From Prorocentrum cordatum (lineage: Eukaryota; Sar; Dinophyceae; Prorocentrales; Prorocentraceae): DNA of 64,000 bases. A program made the translations under genes and the position numbers. The first letter of the stretch is position 1. Every line of letters starts with the position of its first letter. The stretch covers positions 165,709 through 229,708 of the forward strand of contig CAUYUJ010017630.1 in assembly GCA_963575745.1 (NCBI GenBank), given 5' to 3'. Below are positions 25,549-49,334 of this stretch, piece after piece. The notes beneath the pieces were generated by a model that saw nothing but the letters and a program-made list of their open reading frames with translations, was not told where the DNA came from and ran no database searches.

Positions 25549-26719
25549 TTTTCCCAACTATCCTGTTGTTTTGGGTCCTCGCTTTGAAGACACGTCGCCC
25601 CGCGTTCTCCTCTCCTCTTCTCCTCCCCCTCCTCCTCCCGCTACCCCCTCCTCCTCCCTCCTCCCTCCCTGCGTTTCATCCACCCAGTGCAACGTTTCGT
25701 GGCCCCATATTCGGAGGCCCCACCTACGGTCCCAGTGCTACCGTCCGCATGCGTCCCGCACACCCAGTACAGCGTTTCGTGGCCTTCCTCCCCTTCCTCC
25801 CTGCGTTTCACCCACCCAGTGCAGCGCTTCGTGGGCCCATGGGGTGCCCCGTCGAAGGTCCCAGTGCTACCGTCCGCATGCGCCCCGCGCGCCCAGTACA
25901 GCGCTTCGTGGCCCCATAGGGAATTTCACCGAAGGTCCCAGTGCTACCGTCCGCATGCCTCCCGCGCACCCAGAGCAGCGCTTCGTGGCCCCATCGGGAG
26001 TCCCACCGAAGGTCCCAGTGCTACCGTCCGCATGCCTTCCGCGCACCCAGAGCAACGCTTCGTGGCCCTCTTCCCCCTCTTCCCTGCGTTTCACGTGTTT
26101 CGCGCACCCAGTACAGCGCTTCGTGGTGCCATAGGTACTCCCCCCCCGAGTGTCCCAGTGCTACCGTCCGCGTGCGTCCCGCACACCCAGTACAGCGTTT
26201 CGTGGCCCCATAGGGAGCCCCACGGAAGGTCCCAGTGCCACCGTCCGCATGCGTCCCGTACGCCCAGTGCAGCGTTTCGTGGCCCCATCAAGGGAACTCC
26301 GCCGAAGGTCCCAGTGCTACCATCCGCATGCGTCTCGCGCGCCCAGTACAGCGTTTCGTGGCCGTCTTCCCCTTCCTCCCGGCGCTTCACCCACCCAGTA
26401 CAGCGTTTCGTGGGCCCATGGGGAGCCCCGCCGAAGGTCCCAGTGCTACCGTCCGCATGCGTCCCGCACGCCCAGTACAGCGCTTCGTGGCCCCATAAGG
26501 GAGCTCCGCGGAAGGTCCCAGTGCCACCGTCCGCGTGCGTCCCGCACACCCAGTACAGCGTTTCGTTGCCCCATAAGAGAGCTCCGCGGAAGGTCCCAGT
26601 GCTACCGTCCGCATGCGTCCCGCGCACCCAGTACAGCGTTTCGTGGCCGTTTTCCCCTTCCTCCCGGCGCTTCACCCACCCAGTACAGCGCTTCGTGGGC
26701 CCATGGGGAGCCCCGCCGA
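25549..26719 (+). repeat. Modular head-satellite element E1 (truncated by gap)
   Basis: The head is TTTTCCCAACTATCCTGTTG through TTTTGGGTCCTCGCTTTGAA (25,549-25,590), followed by a CCT-rich tract to about 25,670 and then a ~78-bp satellite to the gap. Each unit carries TTTCGTGGCCCCATAGGGAG, CCGAAGGTCCCAGTGCTACC and GTCCGCATGCGTCCCGC. The tail module is not seen because the N gap follows. Plus orientation means head to tail. Confidence 0.85.
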
Positions 26720-26819
26720 NNNNNNNNNNNNNNNNNNNNNNNNNNNNNNNNNNNNNNNNNNNNNNNNNNNNNNNNNNNNNNNNNNNNNNNNNNNNNNNNN
26801 NNNNNNNNNNNNNNNNNNN
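26720..26819. other. Assembly gap (100 N)
   Basis: Exactly 100 N, the usual placeholder for a gap of unknown size. It lies between two tandem arrays, so array collapse is likely. Confidence 1.
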
Positions 26820-27250
26820 GAGGCAGGCTGAGGCTGAGGCTGAGGCAGGCTGATGCTGAGGCAGGCTGAGGCTGAGGCTCAGGCTGATGCAGGCTGAGGC
26901 TTAGGCAGGCTGAGGCTGAGGCCGAGGCTGAAGGCAGACTGAGGCCGAGGCTGAAGCAGGCTGAGGCTGAGGCTGAGGCAGGCTGATGCTGAGGCTGAGG
27001 CAGGCTGATGCTGAGGCAGGCTGAGGCTGAGGCTGAGGCTGAGGCAGGCTGATGCTGAGGCAGGCTGAGGCTGAGGCTGAGGCTGATGCAGGCCGAGGCT
27101 GAGGCAGGCTGAGGCTGAGGCCGAGGCTGCAGGCAGACTGAGGCTGATGCAGGAGCAGGCTGAGGCTGAGGCTGAGGCAGGCTGAAGCTGAGGCTGAGGC
27201 TGATGCTGAGGCAGGCTGAGGCTGAGGCTGAGGCTGAGGCTAATGCAGGC
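26820..27250 (+). repeat. GAGGCT/GCAGGCTGAGGCT hexamer-based array
   Basis: Imperfect repeat of GAGGCT, GATGCT and GAGGCAGGCT. It runs into terminal block T (27,244-27,400). Confidence 0.95.
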
Positions 27251-27400
27251 CACTGCGACTGTCATCGCGAATGCGACTACGACTGCGAGAACAGCAGAAC
27301 TCTACAACTGGATTCTCATCTGAAACTTAAGGGGGATGCTTCCAGATATGCTCCTACACATCGCTGTTAGGTTGCTTTGCCGGGATAATTTTACCTAACA
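27244..27400 (+). repeat. Terminal block T, copy 1
   Basis: About 150 bp, around 90% identical to 28,876-29,035. Both hold GCGACTGTCATCGCGAATGC, GACTACGACTGCGAGAACAG and CACATCGCTGTTAGGTTGCT, then TTTGCCGGGATA. The last part resembles the tail of the modular family (GGTTGGGTCCTTCGCCAGGA), so block T may be a diverged tail module. Confidence 0.85.
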
Positions 27401-27499
27401 GCGAAGACTGATAGGTTTCTAGTGGTCTCAAAAGAGAGCAGCAGATCACTCCACAGGGGGGTCCGGGCAGGTGTTGGGGCGTTTCCGGGCGGCATGAGC

Positions 27500-28080
27500 C
27501 GGGCTCGTTTTTCACCAACAGTCACACACTTCGTGCTCTTCGCCTTCCCAGAACTCCATTCCCAGGCCACATTCTGGGGGCCGGATGCAACAGTCACACA
27601 CAAAGTGCTCTTCGACATCCCAGAACGCCATTCCCGGGCCACATTCTGGGGGGCCGGATGCAACAGTCACACACTTCGTGCTCATCGACATCCCAGAACG
27701 CCATTCCCGGGCCACATTTTGGATGCCCGGAGCCAACTGTAGGCCACTTCGTGCTCTTCGACTTCCCAGAACTCCATTCCCGGGCCACATTTTGGATGCC
27801 CGGAGCCAACTGTAGGCCACTTCGTGGTCTTCGAGTTCCCAGAACTCCATTCCCGGGCCACATTTTGAATGCCCGGAGCCAACTGTAGGCCACTTCGTGC
27901 TCTTCGAGTTCCCAGAACTCCATTCCCGGGCCACATTTTGAATGCCCGGAGCCAACCGTAGGCCACTTCGTGCTCTTCGAGTTCCCAGAACTCCATTCCC
28001 GGGCCACATTTTGAATGCCCGTAGCCAACTGTAGGCAACTTCGTGCTCTTCGACTTCCCAGAACTCCCATTCCTGGGCCA
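27500..28080 (+). repeat. ~72-bp tandem array, about 8 copies
   Basis: Units carry CCCAGAACTCCATTCCCGGG, CCACATTTTGAATGCCCGGA and GCCAACTGTAGGCCACTTCG. The first three units vary (GGGGGCCGGATGCAACAGTC); the later ones are more homogeneous. A purine tract follows directly. Confidence 0.9.
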
Positions 28081-28089
28081 CATTTTCAG

Positions 28090-28860
28090 CAGGGGCAAGA
28101 GCACGACGAGGAGGAGGACGAGCAAGACCAGGAGGACGAGGACGAGCAGGAGCAGGACGAGGAGCAGGAGGAGCAGGAGAAGAAGGACGAGCAGGAGGAG
28201 GAGGAGGACGAGCAGGAGGAGGAGGACGACCAGGAGGAGGAGGACGACAAGGAAGAGGAGGAGGATGGAGGAGGCGGGGAGGAGGAGGAGGAAGGGGGAG
28301 GAGGAGGAGGAGGAGGAGGAGGAGGAGGAGGAGGAGGAGGAGGAGGAGGAGGAGGAGGAGGACGAGGAGAGGAGGAGGAGGGGGGGGGAGAGCACCAGGA
28401 GGAGGAGAACGAGGACCACCAGGAGGAGGAGGAGGAGGAGGAGGAGGAGGAGGAGGAGGAGGAGGAGGAGGAGGAGAGAACACCAGGAGGAGGAGGACGA
28501 GCAAGACGAGGAGGACGAGAACGAGGACGACCAGGAAGAGGAGGAGGAGGAGGAGGAGGGGAGGGGGAGGACTACCAGGAGGAGGAGGAGGAGGAGGAGG
28601 AGGAGGAAGAGGAGGAGGAGGACGAGGAGGAGGAGGAGGAGGACGAGGAGGAGGAGGGGGGGGGAGAGCACCAGGAGGAGGAGAACGAGGACCACCAGGA
28701 GGAGGAGGAGGAGGAGGAGGAGGAGGAGGAGGAGGAGGAGCACCAGGAGGAGGAGGACGAGCAAGACGAGGAGGACGAGAACGAGGACGACCAGGAGGAA
28801 GAGGAGGAGGAGGAGGAGGAGGAGGAGCAGGAGAAAGAGGAGGAGGAGGAGGAGGCAGGC
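28090..28860 (+). repeat. (GAG/GAC)n purine-rich tract, ~770 bp
   Basis: Strand-asymmetric GAGGAGGAC/CAGGAG repeats. Internal duplications are visible; for example the AGCACCAGGAGGAGGAGAAC block recurs near 28,390 and 28,668. Long poly-Glu, poly-Arg and poly-Leu ORFs follow from the repeat. Potential triplex-forming sequence. Confidence 0.95.
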
Positions 28861-28875
28861 TGAAGCTGAGGCTGT

Positions 28876-29035
28876 GACTGCGACTGCCGTTGCCGCTGCG
28901 ACTGTCATCGCGAATGCGACTACGACTGCGAGAACAGCAGAATTCGACAACTGGATTTTCATCTGAATCTTAAGGGGAATGCTTTCAGATATGCTTCTAC
29001 ACATCGCTGTTAGGTTGCTTTGCCGGGATACTTTT
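28876..29035 (+). repeat. Terminal block T, copy 2
   Basis: Direct-repeat partner of 27,244-27,400, again placed immediately after a tandem array and ending TTTGCCGGGATA. Confidence 0.85.
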
Positions 29036-29067
29036 TTTTAGGGTTTCTTCGGAATGGGCAGTCTTAA

Positions 29068-29590
29068 TGCCTCTTGGGGAATCTAGGGGGCTGCTTGGGG
29101 ACTCTTGGGGCCTCTTCGGGGCGTCTTGGGGCCTCTTGGGGGCCTCTTGGGGCGTGCTAGGGGTCCCTGGGGGCCAAGAGCTCGAAATGTCCGTTCGAGT
29201 CCCCCATCAGGGCTCCCTCTCGGAGCCGTTCCTGCGGCCTATTGGGCCGTTTTTGGCGCCTACTGGGCCGTCTTGGCCGTTTTGGGGCCCCCTTGCAGGC
29301 CTGTTGGGCCGTCTTGGGGCAATCTTGGGGGCTTGTAAGGCCGTCTAGGAGCGCTGGGGCGCCGACAAGGCGAGAAAGCCCAAAACTCAAGAAACATCGA
29401 TGACTTTGGCATCTTGGGGCCCTCATGGGAAGCGTTTCCTCTTGGGGCGTCTTGGAGGCCTCTTGGGCCGTATGGGGGCCATTTTGAGCGTCTTGGAGCG
29501 ATCGTTCGGCGACTCGGGGCCCTCTTTGACCGTCTTCGGGGCACTTGGAGCCCTTTTGGCCCGTCTTGGGACCTTTTTGGGCCGAGAAAA
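29068..29590 (-). repeat. CAAGAGGCC-family block 2
   Basis: Same family as 2,775-3,350 and in the same orientation (plus strand reads GGGGCCTCTTGG). It has the island CGCCGACAAGGCGAGAAAGC near 29,361 that matches the CCGACAAGGCGAGAA island of block 1. Confidence 0.8.
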
Positions 29591-29599
29591 ATCACGCAC

Positions 29600-30145
29600 C
29601 ACCGCTCGCTGCGGCAAGCCCTGACGGCTTAAAGACTTCGGTTCCCGGTCCTTTTTTAAAAACTCTTCAGGGCTGAGGGCTGAGGCTCAGGGGATTGGGC
29701 AAAGGACCTGAGGACACGCCCACTCCGTGCCCAGAGGCACGGTGGCGGATAACTGTTGTTTGCTTTTTTGGGGGGGGAGGCTCTCATGCAGAAAGCGCTG
29801 AAAACGCGTCGTTGCTCTAGCGATTGTAGCGTCGTGGCTTTAGCGTTTTCTGCTTCGCCGTGACATCCATACAGGGGGTGGGGGCTGAAACCGGTTTCCG
29901 TACGCAGGTCTGAAAACGGTAATTACTTTGGCGAAGAACCCAATTCAATCGACAGGCGTGGGAACTATTAACAAGACCGCTCAAAACACAAGAACTTGTT
30001 GGCGGGTTCCGCAGTAACCCTGAAAGCTTCGCCGGTGACCGTCGGACCATGCTCGCGACCCAATTCGTACACGGGCAGGTGACGATGTATACGGGACGGA
30101 GCAAGAGGGTGGGGGCAGAGGAAGCAGGATGAGGGGTATTTTGAG
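29600..30145. other. Unique intergenic sequence
   Basis: Mostly unique. Contains CCAGAGGCACGGTGGCGGAT near 29,731, shared with 3,882. No supported gene. Confidence 0.4.
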
Positions 30146-30149
30146 AAAG

Positions 30150-30985
30150 GATTAGTGGCTCGAGGGCTTTCCGTGGAGCTCCCCATGGGGCCACGAAATG
30201 TGTAAGGGGTCTGCCCGGATGGAGCCGAGTAGCCATGCGGACTTTGCCACAGTCTCTGCTGGCGGAGCCCTCTGTGGGGCCACGAAGCGCATGTTGGGTG
30301 TACCAGACCCTGCCACGGAGGCCTTCGGATGAGCTCTCTGTGGGGCCACGAATCGTGTGAGGGGTGTGCCAGAATGGACCCGAGTAACCATGCGGACCCT
30401 GCCACAGAGGCCTGCGGCTGAGCTCCCTACAGGGCCACGAAGCGTGTGAGGGGTGTGCCAGAATTGATCCGAGTAGTCATGCGGACCCTGCAGCTGGGGC
30501 CTTCGGTGAAGCTCCCGAAAGTGCCACGAAGTTTGTGAGGGGCGTGCCTGACTGGACCCGGGTCACCATGCGAACTCTGCCACAGAGGCCTTTGGCGGAG
30601 CCCCCATGGAGCCACGACGTGTGTGATGGGTGTGCCAGAATGGGCCCGAGTAATCATGCGGACGGTGAAGCTATGGGGCCACGGAACGTGTAAGAGATGT
30701 GCCAGAATTGACCCGAGTAACCATGCGGACGTTGCCACAGAGGCCGTCGGTGGAGTCCCGATGGGGCCACGAAGCACGTGCGAGGTGTAGTGTGCGAAAC
30801 GATGGTGTGAATGATGATGGCACGAAGGCGATGATGCTGACGACGATGATGACGACGATGATGATGATGCTGATGACATGCATGACGAGGAAGATGAGAC
30901 GAGTGGGAGGAGGGCACGAAGTATATGGGGCGGGGTGCTGCGAATTCAAAACGAGGACCCAACGCATAGGAGGGCTGGGGGAAAC
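30150..30985 (-). repeat. Modular head-satellite element E2 (reverse, tail missing)
   Basis: The ~90-bp satellite (CATGCGGACCCTGCCACAGA, GGGGCCACGAAGCGTGTGAG) spans 30,150-30,780. It is followed by an ATGATG-rich stretch and the inverted head around 30,941-30,985 (CAAAACGAGGACCCAACGCA). No tail module is seen at its left end. Confidence 0.75.
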
Positions 30986-31278
30986 ACGCCCCGACCCCGG
31001 CCTGACACGCGTGTGAAAGAAAGCCTGGAAGCCCACGGCCCGTCCGCGGCAGGCTCCGATGAAGGAACGCAACAGACTTGAACAAGACCAGCGAGGCGTG
31101 TTTTTTTGGCATGTTCGGTTTTGTGGTTGATGAGTTTAAAGCACGACTTCCACGACGCCGAGCTGAACACGCAAAACACGTCCAGAACATATTTACGTTG
31201 AGCCAAGTTGCTGAATGAGCTCATATGGTGAGAAGAGCTGCTGGAGGTCCCCGCGGTTTTTTTGGAGAGGCGCTGCAT

Positions 31279-31323
31279 CTCCCTGGCGCGCTCCGCGAGC
31301 CAGGGTGATCTGGCGCCAGGGAG
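31279..31323. repeat. Small foldback (11-bp perfect arms)
   Basis: CTCCCTGGCGC (31,279-31,289) and GCGCCAGGGAG (31,313-31,323) are exact inverses around a 23-nt loop. Confidence 0.6.
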
Positions 31324-31420
31324 GGGCGGGTGGCAGCGCCGAGTCAGGTCAGGCGTGCGTGATCATGTGGTTTGTTAATTCTATCCTCGTCGTCGGTCGT
31401 CGGCGCCGAGAGCCGAGGAA

Positions 31421-31525
31421 AGAGGAGGAGGAAGAGGAGGAGGAGGACGATGACGAGGAGAAGGAGGAGGAGGAGGAGGAGGACGAGGAGGAGGAGGAAG
31501 ACGAGGAGGGCGAGGAGGACGAGGA
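31421..31525 (+). repeat. (GAG/GAC)n microsatellite
   Basis: GAGGAG/GACGAG trinucleotide tract. Confidence 0.95.
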
Positions 31526-31738
31526 TTACCAAGCGCGCTATAGGCTTGAAGGGTACCTAAACCCATCTTTACGGATGAGGCGGCCACATCCTCAAAGTTG
31601 GAGGTACTGCCGAAAGCTATCGGCCACCTGCTGATACCAAGGAGGCCAAATCTCACTTATAGCTTTCGGCCGTACCTCGGAATAGGGTGCCTATCCGTCA
31701 GTAATAGCTGCTCGAATTTCCACTCCTCATTCCCGGAC

Positions 31739-32116: not shown

Positions 32117-32216
32117 GAAGCCATGGCCAGGGGGTGACAGACACGGCACCGAAGGAGCGCTCGCGGCGGAGCCACAGCACGAGGGAGCATCATGGCACCC
32201 CGGTGCTCCCCCCTTT

Positions 32217-32240: not shown

Positions 32241-32244
32241 CCAT

Positions 32245-34550: not shown

Positions 34551-34553
34551 TTA

Positions 34554-36745: not shown

Positions 36746-36929
36746 AGGAGGAGGTCCTTCTCATCCCCTCCCTCCTCGTCCTGGAACTCCTTAGCGAGCG
36801 AAGAACGGTATAATAGACACTTTTCCGCCGTCGGGGGCGGCTGGAAAGTTGATACCCCTGCGTGGCACCGTAGGGATATAATTTTTGCCGCCGCCCAGGG
36901 TGTAAGCGTCCCCGACGGCGAAAAAGTTT

Positions 36930-38711
36930 GTTCCCGACCATCCTGTGGTGTTGGGTCCTCGTTTTGAAGAGACGGTCCCCGCGTTCCTTCCTCCTTCCTT
37001 CCTCCTCCCCCCTCCTCTCGTCTCATCATCAGCATCATCCTCCGCATCATCGTCATCATCGTCATCATCACCATTATCGCCATCATCATCGCCTTTATCG
37101 TCACCATCATCGACACCCATTTCGGCACATCGCTCACACGTTTCGTGGACCCATTTGGAGCTCCGCAGAAGGCCAGATTGCCACCGTCCACAAGCGTCCC
37201 CCACACCCATTCTGGCACACCCCTCGTGGCCCCTTAGGGAGCTCCACCGACGTCCGCAGTGGCACCGCCCGCATGCGTCTCCCAAACTCACTTCAGCACC
37301 CCCCAGTGCCGCCGTCCGCATGCGTCCAACACATCCATTTCGGCACACCCCTCACACGCTTCGTGGCTCCATAGAGAGCTCCACCGAAGGCCCCAATGCC
37401 ACCGTCCACCTGCGTCCCCCCCCCACACACCCATGTCGACACGCCCCTCACACATTCCGTGTCCCCATGGCGAGTTCCACCGAAGGCCCCAGCGCCACCG
37501 TCCACATGCGTCCGCCGCGTCAGTTTCGGCACACCCCTCACAGTTTTCGTGGACCCATAGGGATTTCCACCGAAGGCCCCAGTGCCACTGTCCACATGCG
37601 TCCGCCGCAACCATTTTGGCACACCCCTCACAGGGTTCGTGGCCCTATAGGGAGCTCCACCGAAGGCCCCAGTGTCGTCTCCCACACCGATTTCGGTACA
37701 CCTCTCACACGTTTCATGGCCCCAGAAGGAGCTCCACAGAAGGGCCCCAGTGCCACCGTCCGCATGCGTCCCCCGCACCCATTTCGGCATGCCTCTCACG
37801 CGTTTCGTGGCCCCATAGGGAGCTCCACCGAAGGCCCCAGCGCCACCGTCCACATGCGTCCCCGCACCCATGTCGGCACCCCCTCACACGTTTCGTGGCC
37901 CTTTTGGGAGCTTCACCGACGGCCCCAGTGCCACCGTCCACACGCGTCCCCCGCACCCACTTCGGCACACCCCTCACACGCTTCGTGGCTCCATAGGGAG
38001 CTCCACCGAAGGCCCCAATGCCACCGTCCACATGCGCCCCCCCCACACACTCATGTCGGCACACACCTCACACGATTTCGTGGCTCCATAGGAAGCTTCA
38101 CCGAAGGCCCCGGTGCCACCGTCCACATGCGTCCCCGCACGCACAAATCCCGGCACACTCCTCACACGCTTCGTGGCCCCATAGGAAGCTCCACCAAAGG
38201 CCACAATGCCACCGTCCAAATGCGCCCCCCGCACCCACTTCGGCACACCCCTCACACGTTTCGTGGCTCCATAGGGAGCTCCACCGAAGGCAACAGCGCC
38301 ACCGTCCACCAGCGTCCGCCGCACCAATTTCGGCACACCCCTCACAGTTTTCGTGGCCCCATAGGGAGCTCCACCACCGAAGGGCCCGAGTGCCACAGTC
38401 CACTTGCGTCTCCCAAACACCCATTTCGGTACGCCCATCACACGTTTCGTGACCCCATCGGGAGCTCCACCGAAGGCTTCAGTGCCACCGCCCGCATGCG
38501 TCCCCCATGTCAATTTCGGCACCACCCAGTACAGCGTTTCGTGGCCCCATAGGGAGCTCCACCGAAGGCCCCGGTGCCACCGTCCACATGAGTTTCCGCA
38601 CCCATTTCGGCACACCCCTCACTGGGTTCGTGGCCCCATAGGTAGCGCCACCGAAGAAGATCTTCACACTTGCGGTACTCACAACTGCATATGGTTGGGT
38701 CCTTCGCCAGG
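36930..38711 (+). repeat. Modular head-satellite-tail element E3 (complete)
   Basis: The head is GTTCCCGACCATCCTGTGGT then GTTGGGTCCTCGTTTTGAAG (36,930-36,970). A CCT-rich tract and CATCAT run extend to about 37,110. Then follow about 16-17 units of a ~90-bp satellite (TTTCGTGGCCCCATAGGGAG, CTCCACCGAAGGCCCCAGTG, CCACCGTCCACATGCGTCCC). The tail ends ATGGTTGGGTCCTTCGCCAG (38,651-38,711). Head and tail both contain TTGGGTCCT. This is one of two apparently complete copies. No convincing coding capacity. Confidence 0.9.
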
Positions 38712-38714
38712 CTA

Positions 38715-39120
38715 ATTCGATACCATCCATCGCCCCCTAACTCCCTCCTCCTCCTCTTCCTCCTCCTCCTCCTCCTCCCCATTCCCCCCTCCCCGCTTGG
38801 ATGGCTGGGCCCTGTCAAAGACTCGGGGACAGCGGGGGCGCCTCCCGTCGCTTGGGGGCCGACGGGGCGATCCGTACCGACAGATGGGCGGGGTGTGTGG
38901 ATGCACGGGCGGCCATCCCCAGGACTGGCGGATGACTGGGCCCCTCCTCCTCGTCCTCTACTCTTCCTCCTCCTCCTCCTCGTCCTGCTCCCCATCATCC
39001 CCCTCCCCCTGTCCCTGCCGCTGCCCCTGCCGCTGCCCCCTGCTGCTGCCCCCGCTGCTGCCCTTGCTGCTGCCCCTGCTGCTTCCCTCCTCCTTCCCCG
39101 CCTCGTCCCTTCCTTGGCGG
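38715..39120. other. Low-complexity CT/CTG-rich sequence
   Basis: Contains (CCT)n near 38,752-38,782 and CTGCCGCTGCCC repeats near 39,005-39,090. No gene supported. Confidence 0.5.
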
Positions 39121-39141
39121 CGAGCGAGGGGGGGGTAAGTG

Positions 39142-39275
39142 AGAAGGAGAGGGCCTTCTCAGAAGGCGGCGGGGCTTCTCGCAAGCTCTCGCGCCTTCTG
39201 GGCGGCTGCCTGCGTCTTCCTGGAAGGCTAAGCAAACTTTTCAGAATGCCAGGGGACTTCCGAGCCCTCTGAGAA
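39142..39275 (+). repeat. Dispersed repeat B, copy 2
   Basis: Partner of 272-392. Carries CCTTCTCAGAAGGCGGCGGG and ends CCAGGGGACTTCCGAGCCCT. Confidence 0.5.
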
Positions 39276-39519
39276 GGCCCGCCCTTCTCACTTCCCCCCT
39301 GGCTCGCCGACGACTTCCCTGGGGAGCCCAGTCGCTCTGTTTTTTTTTCCCAGCTCCCCGCTGGGGTCGCAGGACGGCGAGGTTTCTCTTTTGGCTGTGA
39401 TGGCGCCGAGGGCGATTGTGTTCGGTCGTGTTGCTTGCCTCTGGTGGCGCCCCGGGTTCCTCTCCTTTCTTCATCCCCCCCCCTCCTCCTCTCTCCTCCC
39501 GTCACCCCCCTCATTTTTG

Positions 39520-40527
39520 GCCCCATAGGGAGCTCCACCAAAGGCCCCAGTGCTACCGCCCGCATGCGTCATCCCGACCCAGCACAGCGTTTCGTGGCCC
39601 ATACATAGGGAGCTCCACCGAAGTCCGCAGTGGCATCTCCCGCATGCGTCACCCCCGCCCAGTGCAGCTTTTCGTGGCCTCATAGGGAGCTCCACCGAAG
39701 GGCCCCAGTGGCACCGCCCGCATGCGTCACCCCCACCCAGCACAGCGTTTCGTGGCCCCATATGGAGCTCCATGGAAGGCACCAGTGGCACCGCCCGCAT
39801 GCGTCACCACCCACCCAGCACAGCGCTTCGCGGCCCCATATGGAGCTCCACGGAAGGCCCCAGCGGCACCGCCCGCATGCGTTACCCCCCACCCGGTACA
39901 GCGCTTCGTGGCCCCATAGGGAGCCCCACCGAAGTCCCCAGTGGCAACAACCACATGCGCCACACCCGCCCAGTGCAGCGTTTCGTGGCCCCATAGCGAG
40001 CTCAACCGAAGGCCACAGTGGCACCTCCCGCATGCGCCCCACCCACACAGTACAACGTTTCGTGGCCCCACTGAGAGCTCCACCGAAGGGCCCAGTGGAT
40101 GCACTCGCGTGTGGTTCCCCCGCCCAGTGCAGCGTTACGTGTCCCCAGAGGGAGCTCCATTGAAGGCCCCAGTGGTGGTGTTCGCATGCGTTCCACCCGC
40201 CCAGCACAGCGCTACGTGGCCTCCTGGGGAGCTGCACCGAACGCCCCGGTGGCTGTACTCGCATGCGTTTCCCCACACCCATTGCACCGCTTCGTGGCCC
40301 CACAGGGAGCTCCACCGAAGGCCCCAGTGGCGGCTCCGCCCCACTGCGGCGCACCCCTCACACTTTTCGCGGCCCCGTAGTGCGTTCCGCCTACAGCTCC
40401 AGTGGCAACGCCCACATGGCGGCCCAGCCCCACATCGGCACACCCATGGCCCCATGAGGAGATCACCCGAAGGCGATACCTGCAACGAGGGTATTCACAA
40501 CTGCATATGACTGGGTCCTTCGCCAGG
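39520..40527 (+). repeat. Modular satellite-tail element E4 (head missing)
   Basis: About 11 units of a ~78-bp satellite (GGCCCCATAGGGAGCTCCAC; ACCGCCCGCATGCGTCAC), then a degenerate end. The tail contains TATTCACAACTGCATATGAC and TGGGTCCTTCGCCAGG, ending at 40,527. A CCT tract precedes it, but the head motif is absent. Confidence 0.85.
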
Positions 40528-40529
40528 AT

Positions 40530-40915
40530 AACTTGTTGTTGCTCGTGTGTGGTCTCCGGTGCCCCGTCGGTGACTGCGTTTCGACTGAATGCGGCACCCA
40601 CAGCTGCTGCCGCCCACTTGCTCATCATTTCCGTGGAAAGCCGAACCGAACCGAACCTCCCCCATTCTCCTCTTTTCGTTGCCCAGTTACAGGAACCTGG
40701 CCATGATACTACGCTCGCATCTGCAATCGCGCGCAGTATAGTGGACGGTCTTCAGGGAAAGCTCGCGAGACTGAGATGTTCAACAATATATTAATAGATA
40801 AATTTATAAGTTAGTTAGTTAAGCAATCAATTCAATAGTTATGTAGAGCATATACGCTCCCCCCCGGGGAGCGTCCCCCACCTCCGTGACATCTGGGGGG
40901 AATTCCCGGTACCGC
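40530..40915. other. Unique intergenic sequence
   Basis: Mixed-composition unique sequence with an AT-rich end near 40,780-40,850. Nothing recognised. Confidence 0.4.
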
Positions 40916-41142
40916 GCCCCTGGGCCTCCCAGGGAGGCCCCAAAACAGCCCAAGACGCTCCCAAGGAGCCCCCAGAACGGGAAAGGACTGCCCAAGACGC
41001 TCCCAAGCAGCCCAATACAGACCTCCGACGGCTCTCCAGGCTCCCAGGAGGCTTCCAAGAGGCCCACAAAGAGCTCCGAGTGGCGTCCTGGGAGCGCCCG
41101 AAGAGGCCAATCTCGTGATTTTCGTGTGTGTGTGTATGTGTG

Positions 41143-41198
<56 letters not shown>

Positions 41199-41208
41199 TG
41201 TGTGTGTG

Positions 41209-41243
<35 letters not shown>

Positions 41244-41590
41244 GTGTTTGGGGAAGCCTTCTCACGTTTTCGAGCTTCCAACGCTCGAAGACGGCTGAAA
41301 AAGGCACCCAAGGCCGCTCCAAGACCGCCCAAGAGCCCCCAAGACGGCTCCAAGACGGGCCAAGCAGACCCCAAGACGGCCCAAGAGCGCCCCAAGGCAG
41401 CCCAAGAGATCCCCAAGATGGCCGGGGAAGCCGCCCAATAGGGGGAACGCAAATCGACAATCCCAGCTTTCCGCTCCAAGAGGCCCCCAGGAGGCCCCAA
41501 GAGTCCCCCAAAGAGCCTGACGAGGCCCCGAAGAGGCCCAATAGTAGCCCCAAGAGGCCCCGAAACAGCCCCCCAGCGGCTTCCAACTTG
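40915..41590 (+). repeat. CAAGAGGCC-family block 3
   Basis: CCAAGACGGCCC/CCAAGAGGCCCC repeat interrupted by a TG/TGCG tract (41,124-41,250). The island CGAGCTTCCAACGCTCGAAG (near 41,269) recurs in blocks at 47.7 kb and 49.35 kb. Confidence 0.85.
41124..41250 (+). repeat. (TG)n/(TGCG)n microsatellite
   Basis: TG dinucleotides flank a TGCG tetranucleotide core (41,155-41,200). Alternating purine-pyrimidine sequence with Z-DNA potential. Confidence 0.95.
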
Positions 41591-41631
41591 CCACCCAAGA
41601 TTTCCCTGCACGCCTCTTAGCCCCCCCCTCG

Positions 41632-42150
41632 GTTCCTGCGTACTACACGTTTGGAGGCTCCACTTGAAACAATAGGGAATCCAGTGATTCTGTTTTTGTT
41701 CAAGTTCATCCCGAGCCCCATCAAGAGTCCGTGGTCACAATGCAAAGACTTTTCGGGAATGCTGCTGAACTCTCTGACGCTGTCTTGGCACTCTCTTGGT
41801 TCGTCTTCGTGTCCTCATGGCTGCCCCTGAAAAACATTGAAACTCCAACTCCCACGAGTTCACCTGTCCAGCCTAGCTAGACCGTCAGCGCGCGCGCGCC
41901 AAGAAAGAGACAACAGAGGGGACCTCCCAACGCCTTACGAGCGCTTTGCCCGAAGGTGGCACCGAGGTTCTGCTAGAGGTTCTCGAGGCGCCACCCAGAA
42001 GCATGCGGAGATTCCCGGGAGGCTCCCAGGAGGCACTCAGAGTTCCCCAAGAGGCCCCGAAAGACTTCCAAGACGCCGCCAAAAAAGGCCCCAAGTGCCA
42101 TCCCGACAGGCCAGACCCTGGTCCCACAGCCCAGGCATGGCAATTTGAAA
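41632..42150 (+). repeat. Dispersed repeat D, copy 1 (with hairpin remnant)
   Basis: Homologous over about 500 bp with 49,694-50,237. Shared are TCCTGCGYACTACA, CCCCGAGCCCCATCAAGA, CTGACGCTGTCT, TCGTCTTCGTGTCCTC, CAGCCTAGCTAGA, AGAGGGGACC, CCCAGGAGGCAC and the final GGCAATTTGAA. It includes a CTAGCTAGAC-CAGCGCGCGCGCGCC remnant of the hairpin family near 41,874. Homology with copy 2 stops where modular element E5 begins. Confidence 0.85.
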
Positions 42151-42156
42151 CATTAT

Positions 42157-42833
42157 CCTGGCGAAGGACCCAACCATATGAAGTTGTGGGTACCGCAATT
42201 GTGAATATCTTCTTCGGTGAAGCTCCCTATGGGGCCACGAAGCGCTGCGCTGGGCGGGGGGGAACGCATGCGGGCGGTAGCACTGGGGCCGTCGGTGAAG
42301 CTCCCTGTGAGGCCACGAAACGCTGCACTTGGTGGGTGCAAATACCAAACTAGGCGTGTGGGACGCATGAGGGCGGTCCCATTGGGGGCTTCGGTGGAGC
42401 TCCCTATGGATGGGGCCGCGAAGCGTTGTAAAGGGTGGGTGGAAATGCCAAAGTGGGTGTGGGGGACGCATGCGGGCGGCCCCACTTGGGGCTTCGGCGG
42501 GGCTCCCTATGGGGCCACGAAGCGCTGTACTGGGTCTGTGAAAATGCCAAATTGGGCATGGTGGACGCATGTGGGCGGTCCCACTCGAGGCTTCGGTGGA
42601 GCTCCCTGTGGGGGACGCATGCGGGCGGTCCCACTGGGGGCTTCGGTGGAGCTCCCTATGGGGCCACGAAGCGCTGTACTGGGCGGGTGAAAATGCCAAA
42701 TTGGGCATGGTGGACGCATGCGGGCGGTCCCATTGGGGGGGCTTCGGTGGAGCTCCCTGTTGGGCCACGGGGCGCTGTACTGGGCGGGCGACAATGCCAA
42801 ATCGGATGCGGGGGACGCCCACTGGGGGCTTCT
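42157..42833 (-). repeat. Modular satellite-tail element E5 (reverse; ends at SL relic)
   Basis: The inverted tail (CCTGGCGAAGGACCCAACCA) starts at 42,157. It is followed by GAATATCTTCTTCGGTG and six to seven units of ~78-99-bp satellite (ACGCATGCGGGCGGTCCCAC, GGAGCTCCCTATGGGGCCAC, GAAGCGCTGTACTGGG). The array stops within a unit at 42,833, directly before the spliced-leader sequence. No head is present. Confidence 0.88.
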
Positions 42834-42855
42834 TCCGTAGCCATTTTGGCTCAAG
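42834..42855 (+). other. Genomic relic of the dinoflagellate spliced leader (DinoSL)
   Basis: All 22 positions match the canonical DinoSL with T as the first base (blocks TCCGTAGCC, ATTTTGG and CTCAAG). DinoSL is normally added to mRNA 5' ends by trans-splicing. A copy fixed in genomic DNA directly upstream of a gene is the accepted sign that a mature mRNA was reverse-transcribed and reinserted. I see no SL RNA gene hallmarks here: no GT donor follows, the next bases being CCTGCC. A relic is therefore the better call. Confidence 0.93.
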
Positions 42856-44283
42856 CCTGCCTTGGGCGCTAGACTGGCGGTGCGCGCCGTGCCTCTCCCT
42901 GTAGAGTCCAGTCACCTCGGCTGGCGCGGATCGCGGCTCGGTCTCCTTCCCCCGCGCGCGCGCGTCCCGAGGCAATGGCTACGGTCGCTCCCCTGGGTGG
43001 GGACAAGCCTGCGGGTGCGAGGCTTGGCGCTGTCGCGGAGCTCGTCCGCGCCGCCGTGCGAGGTGCGGCCGAGGGAGGCGCGCCTCGGCAGGGCCTGGCG
43101 GCTGTGGCGGCGGCGGCGGTCCGCTCGGCCATGGGAGATCCCGCAGTGGTGCGTGAGGGCGACGCCGCGGAGGTCCAGGCGCGGATCTGCCTGATCGAGC
43201 CCGTCGTCGCTGAGCACTTTCGGGCTGCGAGCGAGGCGCGGCCCCCGCGCGCGGCGGGAGGTCGACGCGCCTGGGCGGAACATCGCGGAGCACAAGTTCC
43301 TCGACGAGATGGACAAGCCCTTCAGGGCCGAGGATCGGTTCGAGAAGTCAGACGCGCAGGGCAAGTGCCTCCAGCGCGGCCGGCGGTGGCCGCCGAGGTA
43401 CGGGGCAAGGCCGGGATGCGATCCGTGTCGGGGGTGCTGACGCCGAGGTTCGAGGACAAGGGCGCGGACGAAGCGTCCGCTGGCTCGGACGAGGTGCTCA
43501 CGGAGGCGACCACCTCCAGCGGGAAGTCCGAGGAGCTGGAGCAGCTCGGCGTCGCGGGCTCGGGGTCGGCGGTGGCGGACTCGGACGGCATGGTGGGCCG
43601 TGTCCAGGAGCTCATGGCGGAGCGCCAGCAGCTCCTGGCAGAACGAGACGGGCTCGTGGACGAGCTCATGAGCACCGAGGCCCTTGCCTGGGAGCGAGCA
43701 ACTGGTGGAGCAGCCCGTCGGCATGGAGGCGTCGTACAAGGAGAAGTGCGTGGGGTCAGCCTTGTCGGACAACTGTTCCCACGAGGAGGCGTCCGAGTGC
43801 CAGGCCGACGCCGAGGGGTTTGGCGGGCAGCACGGCGCCTGGGAAGATGGGCCCCCAGGCCGTCTTCCCATCCCTGGCTGGGCCTGCAGCGCCTGGGAAG
43901 ATGGGGCCCGAGGCCGTCTTTCCACTCCTGGCGGGGCCGGCGCTGCCTGGGAAGATGGGGCCCCAGGCCGTCTTCCCACCTCCGCGGAGGCCGCCCGCAC
44001 GGGGGACAGCAAGCCGAGAGCGCTGGAGCCGAGGGCGTGTGGCGCCGAGGCGCTGGTGGAGGCCCCCGAGGGGACCTCGAAGGGAGTGCGCTGGGCTGAT
44101 GACCTCGATGAGATCACCCAGCAGGTGGTGCCCGAGGTTTCGGCGGCGGCGGAGGCCCCGACGGAGGCCCAGCAGCTCATTCTCGGCGCCGCTATGCTGG
44201 CGAGGGAGGCCCTCCAGCGCGGCGGCATCGCCGAGGGCCTTCGGCTGCTGGAGGCGGCCCAGGCGAAGTGCCTGGAGAACTAG
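42856..44283 (+). pseudogene. SL-tagged retrogene, frameshifted, unknown protein
   Basis: Begins right after the SL with a ~119-nt leader, then ATG at 42,975 (MATVAPLGGDK). That frame is open to 44,099, but the protein-like reading appears to change frame. About 43,264-43,400 reads better in the next frame (HKFLDEMDKPF), which hits TGA at 43,438. From about 43,420 to 43,683 the first frame is good, with acidic/Ser-rich sequence then a short coiled coil (VQELMAERQQLLAERDGLV). After LMSTEAL the sensible frame shifts again and ends at TAG 44,281-44,283. This last part has three 18-residue repeats starting AWEDG (43,835-43,982) and a helical Ala/Glu-rich end. No family is recognised. No intron is evident, as expected of a retrocopy. 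Assembly indels are the alternative to decay. Confidence 0.65.
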
Positions 44284-44560
44284 CCAGGTAGGGTAGCGCC
44301 CTGATCATGTGTAGTATCTGTTATTATTGCACAGTGCTTGCTTGATGCAGGTGTTGCTGGTGATGAGATCGTGTGTCGTATCTGTTCCCTTCAGTGCTAC
44401 ACCTGATTTGGTTTTCTTGTAGTATATGGTCTGATCAGTGCTGCACTTGATGGATGGTCTTGTGTAGTATATGCCAGAGGTTTCGCCTTTCTGTCTGTGC
44501 TGCACTTGTTTGGGGAAGGGGCCCAACGCGGCCTCCTCGGGAGGGTCGGCCAATCCGTGG
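44284..44560 (+). other. Retrogene 3' region with imperfect TGTAGTATCTGTT repeats
   Basis: Three to four imperfect repeats share GTGTAGTATMTG, CAGTGCTGCACTTGATG and TTTC/TTGG spacers. It may be the 3' UTR of the retrogene or a separate repeat. No poly(A) stretch is visible. Confidence 0.4.
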
Positions 44561-44566
44561 CCCCGT

Positions 44567-44810
44567 CGGTTTTTATTCCCAACCCTCCTTGGTTGGGTAC
44601 TCGTTTTGAATAGAGCACTGCGGTCTCCACCTTCCTTCCTTCCCGCCTCCTCCTCCTCTCTTCCCTCTTCCTCTCCTCTCTTGCTTCCCTTCTCCGCCTC
44701 TCTTCGCTCCTCCTCTTCTCTCTTGCATCCCTTCTCCTCTCTTCGCTCTTCCTCTGTTGCTTCCATTCTCCTCCTCTCTTCGCTCCTCCTCTTCTCTCTT
44801 GCCTTTTACG
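44567..44810 (+). repeat. Modular head E6 plus pyrimidine tract
   Basis: A diverged head module, TATTCCCAACCCTCCTTGGT then TGGGTACTCGTTTTGAATAG, followed by CTTCCTTCC/CTCCTCCTCT sequence. Here the downstream array is a different satellite (44,812-45,475), showing that the head can pair with unrelated arrays. Confidence 0.7.
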
Positions 44811-44811
44811 T

Positions 44812-45475
44812 CATCCCTTTGGGGCTGCGATCTGTGAAACTGTCGCCACTTTCGAGGGCTGCTGGTGGGTCCAGCGGAGTGAGGCACCACGCAGATTCAG
44901 ATTAGACCTCGCCATCCCTGGGGGGCTGCGATCTGCGAAACTGTCACCACTTTCGAGGGCTGCTGGTGGGTCCAGCGGAGTGAGGCACCACGCAGATTCA
45001 GATTAGACCTCGCCATCCCTGGGGGGCTGCGATATGCGAAACTGTCGTCACTTTCGAGGGCTGCTGGTGGGTCCGGCGGAGTGAGGCACCACGCAGATTC
45101 ATATTAGACCTCGACTTTCGAGGGCTGCTGGTGGGTCCAGCGGAGTGAGGCACCACGCAGATTCAGATTAGACCTCGCCATCCCTGGGGGTTTGCGATCT
45201 GCGAAATTGTCGTCACTTTCGAGGGCTGCTGGTGGGTCCAGCGGAGTGAGGCACCACGCAGATTCAGATTAGACCTCGCCGTCCCTGGGGGGCTGCGATC
45301 TGCGAAACTGTCGTCACTTTCGAGGGCTGCTGGTGGGTCCAGCGGAGTGAGGCACCACGCAGATTCAGATTAGACCTCGCCATCCCTGGGGGGCTGCGAT
45401 CTGCGACGCTGACGCCACATTCGAGGGCTGCTGGTGGGTCCAGCGGAGTGAGGCACCACGCAGATTCAGATCCCG
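44812..45475 (+). repeat. ~101-bp tandem array, 6-7 copies
   Basis: Units hold CTGCGATCTGCGAAACTGTC, TTTCGAGGGCTGCTGGTGGG, CCAGCGGAGTGAGGCACCAC and GCAGATTCAGATTAGACCTC. The fourth unit (about 45,113-45,178) lacks the first third. The last unit ends in CAGATCCCGCACTGCAACATG, which is then duplicated once. Confidence 0.93.
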
Positions 45476-46008
45476 CACTGCAACATGCAGTTCAGTTCCC
45501 GCACTGCAACGTGCAGGAAGGAGGCAGAGAAGCTGGCGCGCGAGCTAGGTCTCGATCGCTTCCTGCACCAGATATAAACAGGTATGATCCTGTGGACAGG
45601 CAGCAGGCATGCGTTGACCGAGCTCCTGCAAAAACGAAACAGTCTCTTGCTTCCTCCCTCCTCTTTCATCATCGCCGCCCTAGTCCTCCTGTTACCTTAT
45701 GCATTCATGGTGCTGCTGCTGCGATGGCTCCTCGCCCCTTCCTACTGGGTTCGTCCTTCTCCTGTCCCTCGTTCCCGCCCCCGCTATTGTTTAACAAACC
45801 TTGGGACATACTCCTCGTCTTATCGATTGCTGTTCTGTGAGTCGTGCAACATTACGCATCCCATGTAGGTCGCACTACAAATCGCCGCGCCTGCGCTGTC
45901 ACGGCTCCTGCTAATGTTTCCTTATTCCGTTTGCCACTTGATGCCATTGGGTTGTGTACGTCGCAGGGTAATTTTTTCGTACCTTTAAGGCCCCGACAAT
46001 ACAATACA
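45476..46008. other. Unique intergenic sequence
   Basis: No gene or repeat recognised beyond a short GCACTGCAACRTGCAG duplication at its left edge. Confidence 0.4.
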
Positions 46009-46009
46009 A

Positions 46010-47272
46010 TCCACTGGGGGCTTCTGTGGGGCTCCCTATGAGGCCACGAAGCGCTGTATTGGGTGGGTGGCAATGCCAAGTTGGGTGTGGGTGACGCATG
46101 CGGGCGGTGCCATTGGGGGCGCCGGTGGGGCTCCTTATTGGGCCACGAAGCGCTGTACTGTGTGGGTGAGAGTGACAAAGTGGGTGTGGGGGGCGCGCGT
46201 GGGCGGTCCCACTGGGGGCTTCGGTGGAGCTCCCTATGGGCCCACGAAGCGCTGTAGTGGATATGTGAAAATGCCAAATTGGGCGTGGGGGACGCACGCG
46301 GGCGGTCCCACTGGGGGCTTCGGCGGGGCCCCTATGGGGCCACGAAACATTGTGGTGGGTGGGTGAAAATGCCAAGTTGGGTGTGGGGGACGCATGCGGG
46401 CGGTCCCACCGGGGGTTTCGGTGGGGCTCCCTATTGGGCCACGAAGCGCTGTACGGTGTGAGTGAACATATGAAATTGGGTGTGGGGGACGCATGTAGGC
46501 GGTACCACTGGGGGCTTCGGTGGAGCTCCGTATGGGGCCACGAAGCGCTGTAGTGGGTGGGTGAAAATGCCAAACTGAGCGTGGGGGACGCATGGGGGCA
46601 GTCCCATTGGGGGCTTCGGTGGAGCTCCCTGGGGGGCCACGAAACGCTGTATTGGGTGTGTAAAAATGTCCAATTGGGTGTGGGGGACGCATGCAGGCGG
46701 CCCCGCTGGGGGCTTCGGTGGAGCTCCCAATGGGGCCACGAAGCGCTGTGTTGGGTGGGTGACAATGCCAAGTTGGGTGTGGGGGACGCACGCGGGCGTC
46801 CCAGTGGGGGGTTCGGTGGGGCTCCCTATCGGGTCACGAAGCGCTGTGTTGGGTGGGTGACAGTGTCAAAGTGGGTGTGGGGGACGCATGCGGGCGGTCC
46901 CACTGGGGGCTTCGGTGGAGCTCCCTATGGGGTCACGAAGCGCTGTAGTGGGTGGGTGAACCTGCCAAGTTGGGTGTGGGGGACGCACGCGGGGGGTCCC
47001 AGTGGGGGTTTCGTTGAAGCTCCCAATGGGGCCACGGAGCGCTGTGTTGGGTGGGTGACAGTGTCAAATTGGGTGTGGGGGACGCATGCGGGCGGTCCCA
47101 CTGGGGGATTCGGTGGGGCTCCCTATGGGGCCACGAAGCGCTGTGCTGGGTGGGTGAAGCGCATGGCAGAAGGAGGAGGGGGAGAAGGAGGAGGAGGAGG
47201 AGAGGAGGAACGCGGGGCGACGTCTCTTCAAACCGAAGACCCAACACCACAGGATGGTTCGGAAAAACGAAT
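46010..47272 (-). repeat. Modular head-satellite element E7 (reverse, tail missing)
   Basis: About 11-12 units of a ~98-bp satellite (GCATGCGGGCGGTCCCACTG, GGGCTTCGGTGGAGCTCCCT, TGGGGCCACGAAGCGCTGTA, GAAAATGCCAAGTTGGGTGT) are followed by a GGAGGAGG tract. The inverted head follows (AAGACCCAACACCACAGGAT, about 47,228-47,270). The sequence left of the array lacks the tail module. Confidence 0.88.
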
Positions 47273-47439
47273 TCTCAGAGTTTTTTTTTTCAACATTCAG
47301 CCCGCCCCCCGCGCACGCTACTCTTGCACAACAGGCACGATTATGGCCCTTGTCACTGGCCAAAAAAAGACCCAAGGAAACTTTCGACGGCTCCAAAAAT
47401 ACCACAGGAGCGTCCCACAGCTCTGGAACATCTAGGGGA

Positions 47440-47985
47440 ACTCTCACTACCGCGCCCTTAGGCCTTCCCAGGAAGGCTTCAAAACGCCCCAGGACGCCCC
47501 CAAAGAGCCCCAAGTACATAACAAAAACAGCCTAAGACGCAGCCGAGCAACCCAAGAAGGAAGGCCTTCCGACGGCTTTCCAGGCTCAGGACCCCTGAAG
47601 AGTTAACCAGAAGGCCCCCGAGAGGCCCCGAGAGATCTCCGAGAGGCGTCCCGAGTTTCCAAGCTGGGTTCACTGAGTTTTTGGCCTTCTCGCGATTTCT
47701 AGCTTCCAACGCTCCAAGGCAGCCGAAGGGGCCCCCCAGACCGCCCCGGGCCGGCAGAAGAACCCTCCCAAGAGAACCCAAGACGGCCCCAGAGATCTTC
47801 AAGACTGCCCCAAAGGCGCCCAAGACGGGCCAAGAACGCCCCAGGACCGCTGGAAAGAGGCCCCAGGGCGGGAGCAGGAGGCCCCAAGAGGCCGCTGATA
47901 AGCCTCCAGGCCCCCCCAGAGGCCCCCAACAAGCCCCAGACCCTGAGAGTCCCAAGAGAGCTCCGAGTGACGTTCCGAGAGGGTC
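47440..47985 (+). repeat. CAAGAGGCC-family block 4
   Basis: CCAAGACGGCCC-type repeat with the island TCGCGATTTCTAGCTTCCAA then CGCTCCAAGGCAGCC, matching islands in blocks 3 and 5. Confidence 0.82.
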
Positions 47986-48011
47986 CGAAAAGGCCAACAT
48001 CTTTATTGTCA

Positions 48012-49312
48012 CTTGTTCCCAACCATCCTGTGGTGTTGGGTCCTCGTTTTGAAGAGGCGGTTCCGCGTTCTCCTTCTTCCTCTGTCTTTCCTTCGTTCCT
48101 TCCTTCCTTCCTTCCTCCTCCTCCCTCCTCCTCCTCCTCCTCCTCCTCCTCCTCCTCCCGCTTCTCCTTCATTTCGTGGCCCCATAGGGAGCTCCACCGA
48201 AGGCTCTAGTGGGACCGCCCGCATGCGTCTTTCACCACTCAGCACAGCACTTCCTGGCCCCATATGGGGGCTCCACCGAAGGCTCCAGAGGGACCGCCCG
48301 CATGCGTCATTCATCACTCAACACAGCATGTCGTGGCCGCATAGGGGGGATCCTCCGAAAGCCCCAGTGGGACCGCCCGCATGCGTCATCCACCACCCAG
48401 CACAGCGCTTCGTAGCCCCATAGGGGGCTCCACCGAAGCCCCCAGTGGGACCGCCCGCATGCGTAATCCACCACCCATTACAACGTTTCGTGGCCCCATA
48501 GGGGGCTCCACCGAAGGCCCCAGTGGGACCGCCCGCATGCGACATCCACCATCCAGTACAGCGCTTCGTGGCCCCATAGGGAGTTCCACCGAAGGCCCCA
48601 GTGGGACCGCCCGCATGCGTTACCCACCACCCAGTACAGCGTTTCGTGGCCCCATAGGGGGCTCCACCGAAGGCCCCAGTGGGACCGCCCGCATGCATCA
48701 TCCACCACCCAACACAGCGTTTCGTGTCTCCACAGGGAGCTCCACCTAAGGTCTCCGTGGGAGATCTCGCATGGCGGTCCAGTGGCGTTGTTCGCAAGGC
48801 GGCGACTTTCGATTTCCGGAGGTTCTTCGTCGTATTTGGCGTATTGAGGCCGCTTTCGGGCCGTGCATCCAGGCGGGAGCCAGCCTGCTCGCTCTCTGTG
48901 CTCCGCGCAGCGGACGACCCGCGCGCGTCGCCGGGACCCCTTCGGGGCGACCAGCGCGCGTCGCGGGGACTCCGTGCGGCGCCGCGCCCGCCGCCTTGGA
49001 CGTGGGCGTGCACGGGCAAAACGGGAGAAGAAGAACGGGGGAAGGAAGCGGGCGCGATCCTCGTGAGAGGCGCGCCGACATGGGCGTCGACATTGATGCA
49101 CGTAGACTCACGCGCGCGCAGACTCATCCACAACCAGACTCATTCGCTCTCAGTCTCTCGCACACAAACGTATAGTCTTCGCTCGCGTTGTGTGCCCCGC
49201 CAAGCATGTGGGCACGCCCCTCACACGGTTCGTGGCCCCATAGGGAGCGCGGGCGAAGATGAGATTCATAATTGCGGTATTCACAGCTGCATATGGTTGG
49301 GTCCTTCGCCAG
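48012..49312 (+). repeat. Modular head-satellite-tail element E8 (complete, with insert)
   Basis: The head is TTCCCAACCATCCTGTGGTG then TTGGGTCCTCGTTTTGAAGA (48,015-48,055). A CTT/CCT tract runs to 48,165, followed by about eight units of a ~77-bp satellite to 48,760. A ~440-bp GC-rich insert follows, containing duplicated CGCGCGTCGCCGGGACCCC-like units. A satellite remnant (49,205-49,250) and the tail end in ATGGTTGGGTCCTTCGCCAG (about 49,268-49,312). Confidence 0.88.
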
Positions 49313-49334
49313 GCAAATGTTTAAATCGTTTTTT

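Follow-up and report, generated by a model that had tools for sequence, protein, structure and literature searches.

A 64,000-nucleotide stretch of the genome of the dinoflagellate Prorocentrum cordatum (C16781:165,709-229,708; here the window) carries repeated copies of a mobile unit in which a satellite array is enclosed between two defined ends, a head followed by a pyrimidine microsatellite on the 5' side and a tail on the 3' side. The unit is probably a non-autonomous transposable element that is built like a Helentron, in the manner of the Helentron-associated interspersed elements (HINEs), and that most likely moves like one. With it, one very abundant element family is defined in a huge, repeat-rich dinoflagellate genome, one route by which satellite arrays disperse becomes visible, and the HINE layout is extended to alveolates. 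The P. cordatum assembly is reported as 4.15 Gb with a mean G+C content of 59.7% (PMC10666404), and the assembly sampled here comprises 4,128,499,153 bases in 21,875 contigs.

One satellite forms seven arrays in the window, which also contains six heads and five tails. The significance of these parts was assessed by comparing patterns with shuffled sequence and by searching with profiles built from the window copies. The head pattern occurs at 6 sites, versus at most 1 in 100 shuffles, and the head profile finds the same 6 sites (25,551+, 30,979-, 36,931+, 44,576+, 47,264-, and 48,016+) with E values of at most 2e-14, the next match having an E value of 11. The tail pattern occurs at 4 sites, and a decayed fifth tail was found by its profile at 29,987-29,911 on the minus strand (E = 3.9e-13; next match, E = 4.7). 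The satellite core is present at 50 sites with no more than 3 mismatches, versus 0 in shuffles, and 74 monomers at an E value of 1e-3 make up the seven arrays. When 6 heads and 5 tails were placed at random, none of 20,000 placements matched the observed arrangement, in which a same-strand array follows 5 of the heads and precedes all 5 tails. The copies are as follows.

Copy A, 25549..26719, plus strand: head, pyrimidine tract, and 77-79-bp array with longer spacings (77-138); cut by an assembly gap at 26,720-26,819, with no tail seen.
Copy B, 29923..30983, minus strand: decayed, with all parts; head at ~30,981, array at 30,775-30,155 with mostly 88-89-bp units (spacings 66-155), tail at ~29,933.
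Copy C, 36930..38715, plus strand: all parts; head at 36,930-36,998, tract to ~37,112, array at 37,140-38,656 with mostly 88-96-bp units (77-137), tail to 38,715.
Copy D, 39518..40531, plus strand: 75-80-bp array and tail, with a pyrimidine-rich stretch in front but without a head.
Copy E, 42153..42832, minus strand: array with mostly 99-103-bp units (spacings 50-103) and tail; the 5' part is missing where a spliced-leader sequence starts at 42,835.
Locus F, 44575..45516, plus strand: the common head and pyrimidine tract, then an unrelated 101-bp satellite (44812-45516), without a tail.
Copy G, 46011..47265, minus strand: head at ~47,263, tract, and 99-bp array (98-99), ending without a tail.
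Copy H, 48015..49317, plus strand: all parts; head, tract, 78-bp array (78-79) to ~48,775, a 450-bp nonsatellite stretch, a partial monomer, and tail.
Satellite remnant, 58614..58654, minus strand: one recognizable monomer, with two or three more decayed ones seen by eye to ~58,900, without a head or tail.

A preliminary description, made from the letters of the window, had counted at least eight loci sharing head, tract, and satellite. These parts are real and far above shuffles, but there are six heads, copies D and E have none, and the satellite of locus F is unrelated. The common tail that it assigned to several loci was recovered in five, and to the two copies that it listed with all parts, C and H, the decayed copy B is added as a third. 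The decayed satellite stretch at 58560-58900 (minus strand) is perhaps a very old copy.

For the genome sample, 81 bases around the head of copy C were used as the query, which gave 815 first-look candidates. From these, 40 were scored, and 30 stretches, including the window's own, were extracted. With 20 more stretches added, the sample comprises 51 stretches and 303,502 bases (overlaps counted twice), in which 49 distinct heads, 47 tails, and 654 monomers from the window and 29 other loci were found; being based on head C, it is biased toward well-kept heads. A same-strand monomer lies within 400 bp downstream of 44 of the 49 heads and at 400-2,000 bp in 4 more, so that 48/49 heads have one within 2 kb, the single exception being locus F of the window. 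On the tail side, a same-strand monomer is found no more than 600 bp upstream in 46 of the 47 cases and at 746 bp in the remaining one. The distance from tail to nearest monomer is at most 14 bp in 27/47, 49-82 bp in 14, and greater in 6; the array often, but not always, ends at one phase before the tail. Forty heads could be matched to a tail without another head intervening (median distance, 1,598 bp). Two of these pairs exceed 4 kb and were left out, one of 5,115 bp, which runs from window copy G to copy E across other sequence, and one of 5,970 bp, leaving 38/49 heads with a tail at 395-3,239 bp. Of the nine unpaired heads, four have another same-strand head downstream, three have neither a head nor a tail in their stretch, and the other two are copy A, which meets the assembly gap, and locus F. 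All 476 monomers within the 38 complete copies are on the strand of the element. In the C698 copy (L025/L033; L033 7700-9400, minus strand), one of the four whose first monomer lies 400-2,000 bp from the head, ~1.7 kb between tract and array holds frames that resemble, by their motifs, the RNase H and zinc-finger end of a long interspersed nuclear element (LINE).

The exact 26-base tail ATGGTTGGGTCCTTCGCCAGG(A/C)TAAT has 5,688 matches in the genome (2,816 and 2,872 by strand), and its reversed control has 0. From these, a second sample was taken by tail, consisting of the first eight tails in listing order, chosen neither by head nor by satellite, with 0.9-1.2 kb each. A monomer or partial monomer lies directly upstream on the same strand in 8/8, with at least four monomers in 5/8, three monomers beside an N run in 1, and only a partial monomer in 2, and a head falls inside the short stretch in 1/8. 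Heads and tails occurring independently of each other and of the satellite would have refuted the preliminary reading; the genome sample did not show this, and the tails taken in listing order likewise have the satellite in front. One of the two tails with only a partial monomer, that of the C2 copy, was extended: its head lies 2.75 kb from the tail end, and 15 monomers (six consecutive units being identical), a reading frame, the partial monomer, and the tail follow in order. L063, the second of the two, shares 99% identity with C2 over 866 bp. Because there are 5,688 exact tails in the genome and 7 of the 47 sampled tails are exact, the copy number is estimated at roughly 38,000, which at the ~1.6-kb median amounts to ~1.5% of the genome; with a sample that is small and chosen by heads, 20,000 to 90,000 copies are possible. 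In addition, short-contig proteins of the European Nucleotide Archive (ENA), whose source may be the same species, include two that read from satellite into tail (P0004, E = 4.9e-8, and P0005, weak, E = 0.09) and three with the satellite (P0001-P0003).

At the 5' end of the element, a T-run is followed by the 5' subterminal repeat, CCC(G/A)ACCAT, and, across a short loop, by the inverted arm GTTGGGTCCT, which completes a hairpin; the pyrimidine microsatellite comes next. The 3' end is formed by a right flank of ~60 bp, in which the 3' subterminal repeat, ATGGTTGGG, precedes TCCTTCGCCAGG(C/A)TAAT. That TTGGGTCCT occurs in both head and tail, as noted earlier, is explained by the inner arm of the head being identical in sequence to the 3' subterminal repeat. 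The head hairpin folds with z scores of -2.0 to -3.5 in 5/6 window heads. The consensus of the ends is TTtTTCCCgACCATCCTGTGGTGTTGGGTCCTCGT ... TATGGTTGGGTCcTTCGCCAGGcTAATTtt, no conservation being seen beyond it, and pairwise identity is at background (0.26) beyond the ten-base bin adjoining either end. T occupies the two bases before CCC in 47/49 and 45/49 heads, and it follows TAA in 43 of 46 tails, one of the 47 not being anchored and thus left out of the end statistics.

A paralogous empty site was found for 7 of the 38 copies with both flanks, always at a T-run (C14329:271,736, C6892:391,801, C18088:628,092, C13600:799,768, C7205:12,510, C14961:103,094, and C17445:192,560). Among the 53 joint-spanning alignments, those at the tandem loci C14789, C13714, and C916, where the flanks are neighboring copies, and at the pyrimidine-rich C1447 were set aside. 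The seven loci are partly dependent: the empty sites of C14329 and C6892 each lie near the other of these two loci, and C18088 and C13600 share a single empty-site location in L046. The empty-site paralogues are ~72-85% identical, so that statements at single-base precision are drawn from the cleaner ones. The clearest is C17445, where the filled site reads GGCTCTTT / TTCCAAAA and the empty site GGTTCTTT / TTCCAGAA. The paralogue for C7205:12,510 is in the window itself (63,245-63,627), where a tandem stretch with ~83-bp spacing at 63245-63800 represents the uninterrupted insertion site. No target duplication other than Ts was seen at the seven empty sites, and the longest word common to the two flanks of copies B, C, and H, for which the window holds no empty site, is 3-4 nt. 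Given its sharp ends, the unrelated flanks, and the paralogous empty sites, the element is therefore a mobile unit with defined ends and not plain tandem DNA, as had been proposed.

The layout of this unit resembles that of known HINEs. The published description of Cg_HINE from the Pacific oyster (PMC7492417) gives a left flank with a 5' subterminal inverted repeat (subTIR), a complementary inverted repeat at a distance of 1-12 bp, and an eroded microsatellite, followed by a variable segment, a tandem array, and a right flank of ~60 bp with the 3' subTIR; the parts stand in the same order here, and both elements use T-rich targets without target-site duplication. In group 2 of Cg_HINE, related flanks enclose unrelated monomers (PMC7492417), and locus F is likewise an array swapped within one end type. 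DINE-1 and the HINEs of mites and mosquitoes are described with subTIRs, an inverted repeat near the 5' subTIR (in DINE-1), a microsatellite, and central repeats, as well as insertion at TT and boundary runs of 2-5 Ts, to which the parts here are similar, with subTIRs perfect in only part of the copies, and the Helentrons of Culex and Drosophila have T-runs at their ends, as does this element (PMC4067079). The traits shared with HINEs thus include fixed end modules around a microsatellite and repeats in one orientation, the inverted repeat near the 5' subTIR, and T-rich or TT insertion without target-site duplication.

Several observations weigh against a Helentron-like element. No 3' palindrome or stem-loop was found, the tails of the window folding with z scores of -0.4 to +0.4 in 5/5 and forming at best a 3-4-bp stem, and the hairpin of head B has a z score of only -0.45. 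The 9-base inverted match between head and tail is perfect and beyond shuffles only in copy H (5/2,000 shuffles), those of B and C not exceeding chance; across the genome sample, the commonest head is CCCGACCAT (25/49), one mismatch from the complement of ATGGTTGGG, with CCCAACCAT in 8/49. Cg_HINE differs in its subTIRs of 11-12 bp followed by a 3' palindrome, as against 9 bases often with one mismatch here (PMC7492417), and DINE-1 and the mite and mosquito HINEs differ in having a 3' stem-loop and autonomous Helentron partners whose ends match theirs (PMC4067079); neither feature was seen here. CTAA precedes T in 23/46 tails, which is compatible also with a Helitron CTRR end. No autonomous element or Rep/helicase was seen between these ends among the two Rep families, of many, that were looked at; both are Helitron families with determined 5' ends that start unlike the head, and the fetched parts, which do not reach their 3' ends, contain no head or satellite. 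Lastly, a helicase-like frame in C2 has no Pfam match and aligns weakly to the Helitron helicase around LYV-LSR (E = 0.38). The Helentron analogy of the preliminary description stands for the layout, the T-run target, and the lack of a target-site duplication; it is incomplete in that no 3' palindrome was found, no Rep/helicase was seen between these ends in the families looked at, and the subterminal repeats are perfect in only part of the copies. The element is not filed as a HINE because the 3' palindrome was not found and the subTIR pair is imperfect; its layout is nevertheless HINE-like, and it most likely works alike.

Canonical Helitrons have a 5' TC and a 3' CTRR with a hairpin and insert between A and T without target-site duplication. 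It is unlikely that the element is derived from one of these rather than from a Helentron. Its 5' end is TCCC, half of its copies end in CTAA, T is the next base in most tails, target-site duplication is lacking, and Helitron Rep genes are present in the genome, all of which would fit; however, T, not A, precedes TCCC in nearly all heads, 19/46 tails end in ATAA, the empty sites are in T-runs, and the 3' hairpin is missing. A derivative of a cut-and-paste DNA transposon, either a miniature inverted-repeat transposable element (MITE) or an introner that carries the array by chance, is quite improbable. The introns of P. cordatum are reported to be rich in introners, which, like this element, are abundant non-autonomous mobile units (PMC10666404), and head and 3' repeat are partly complementary. 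However, introners were searched for there as 8-20-nt inverted repeats and 3-5-nt direct repeats close to the intron ends (PMC10666404), whereas no duplication apart from Ts is present at the ends or empty sites here, the complementary stretch is 9 bases long, subterminal, and often imperfect, and tail-to-head junctions occur in direct orientation only. The chance that the unit was retroposed by target-primed reverse transcription at T-runs is slim: the targets would suit, and host retroposition appears active, as suggested by the spliced-leader sequence at 42,835, but the 3' end has no poly(A) or other A-tail, the flanks are not duplicated, and both ends are fixed, 5' truncation not being the rule (38/49 heads have their tail within 4 kb, in a sample chosen by heads). 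A plain satellite that expanded where it lies, head and tail being part of its duplicated surroundings, is hardly credible, since flank identity falls to background just outside both ends, paralogous empty sites exist, and exact tails are evenly spread over both strands, even though some copies are in tandem and arrays are homogenized locally.

A Helentron-like mode of movement is consistent with the tandem copies. A tail is followed within 10 bp by a same-strand head in 5/47 tails (three at C14789 and one each at C13714 and C916) and by an opposite-strand head in 0/47, a small count in which three of the five junctions come from one cluster. These junctions may be products of rolling-circle read-through. 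Insertion of one copy into the terminal T-run of a second copy is also possible, but inverted pairs would then be expected as well. In the proposed mechanism, a Rep/helicase acting in trans would copy the unit, and the copy would enter a T-run without target duplication, as the insertions at the empty sites illustrate. Read-through would yield the tail-to-head copies, and arrays would expand and homogenize in each copy, so that movement would scatter satellite DNA. The junctions make rolling-circle movement testable from sequence.

Helitron enzymes are encoded in the genome. Helitron_like_N has 151 matches, obtained from 1,615 first-look candidates, those listed scoring above the cut-off and many lying in long open frames. 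One family encodes a Helitron helicase, as judged from matches to PIF1 (E = 3.3e-42) and Helraiser (E = 5.5e-79); two of its copies share 99.6% identity along 3.4 kb and 99.9% along the 6 kb that follow, while two copies of a second Helitron family are 99.8% identical over 2.8 kb. Because these copies are nearly identical, Helitrons have evidently moved recently in this dinoflagellate genome. The Helitron 5' ends in L053-L058 start ATTCCTTT. In the C2 copy, the 90-residue frame before the partial monomer and tail ends ...ELYVLLSRATRHEDLLLMRAP...FIREA (L060 3-410; also L063), and its LYVLLSR stretch resembles LYVALSR of the Helitron helicase, which is suggestive of either a captured fragment or a remnant of the autonomous partner. 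Positions 48,891-49,089 of copy H are 85% identical to the 3' region of C2, and because copy H retains this part, a larger element may have given rise, by deletion, to some of the satellite copies. In the open literature, no paper joining Helentrons with dinoflagellates or Helitrons with Prorocentrum was found, and among papers on Helentrons in protists or on Helitrons in dinoflagellates, none deals with such an element by its title; the P. cordatum genome paper does not use the word "Helitron" in its main text (PMC10666404).

A broader proposal is tentative, and we consider it possible rather than probable. The element would belong to a Helentron-like dinoflagellate lineage with an autonomous copy that shares its ends and whose helicase partly survives in C2. 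It would move by rolling circle, leaving tail-to-head concatemers, without a 3' palindrome, and would be a main source of dispersed satellite in the 4-Gb genome, the core being kept recognizable in other contigs through a role in replication or transposition.

The satellite arrays differ from copy to copy. Among the 38 copies, the median spacing is 77-80 in 8, 88-92 in 22, and 99 in 4, with single cases of 68, 76, 109, and 113, and several copies are mixed. The unit length, which had been described as uniform within each array, is so in G and H and varies in A, B, C, D, and E. Monomer similarity is 0.865 within copies versus 0.789 between copies, and the nearest-neighbor monomer is in the same copy in 218/407 cases, versus 12 expected. 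Because monomers are more alike within copies, the arrays probably grow and homogenize inside each copy.

Other functions considered for the arrays were rejected. For a hairpin in each monomer (TTCGTGG...CCACCGAA), covariation does not exceed that of column shuffles (126/1,000 reach the paired fraction and 461/1,000 the double changes; 53/63 cores). No Rfam match at the gathering score was obtained in the window, and none at a lax threshold was credible at 36,900-49,400, as a ribozyme or retrozyme would require. Nine large frames matched 0 Pfam families, which speaks against protein coding by the arrays. In viral contigs, head and satellite patterns had no matches, and the tail patterns matched one contig each (L001 and L002), neither with the satellite, which points to chance. 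The satellite pattern had no matches in prokaryote genomes, nor did satellite peptides in viral contigs or prokaryote genomes, and the head peptide was found in none of 7 candidates.

The window has further features, some of them beside copies. Next to the broken array of copy E, 42,835-42,855 (plus strand) is an exact 21-base match to the dinoflagellate spliced leader, and a long frame follows downstream at 42,873-44,099. Together they look like a retroposed trans-spliced cDNA inserted into the array. A MITE-like unit of ~109 bp at 36819-36927, with terminal inverted repeats matching at 17/18 positions (ACTTTTCCGCCGTCGGGG), stops 3 bp short of the head region of copy C, and the window holds no further copy of its arm. 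At 18510-21326 (plus strand), two frames, presumably DIRS-like, resemble by their motifs reverse transcriptase/RNase H and tyrosine recombinase; neither has a Pfam match, and the first has no PDB match. The G+C content ranges from 0.53 to 0.73 across the window in 2-kb bins. Degenerate DNA with 10-, 21-, and 31-bp periodicity (CCCAAGAGGCCCCAAGACGGC type) is found in many places, at 2800-3290, 29070-29570, 41290-41560, 47680-47990, 49340-49700, and 55320-56200, and it adjoins several of the element copies.

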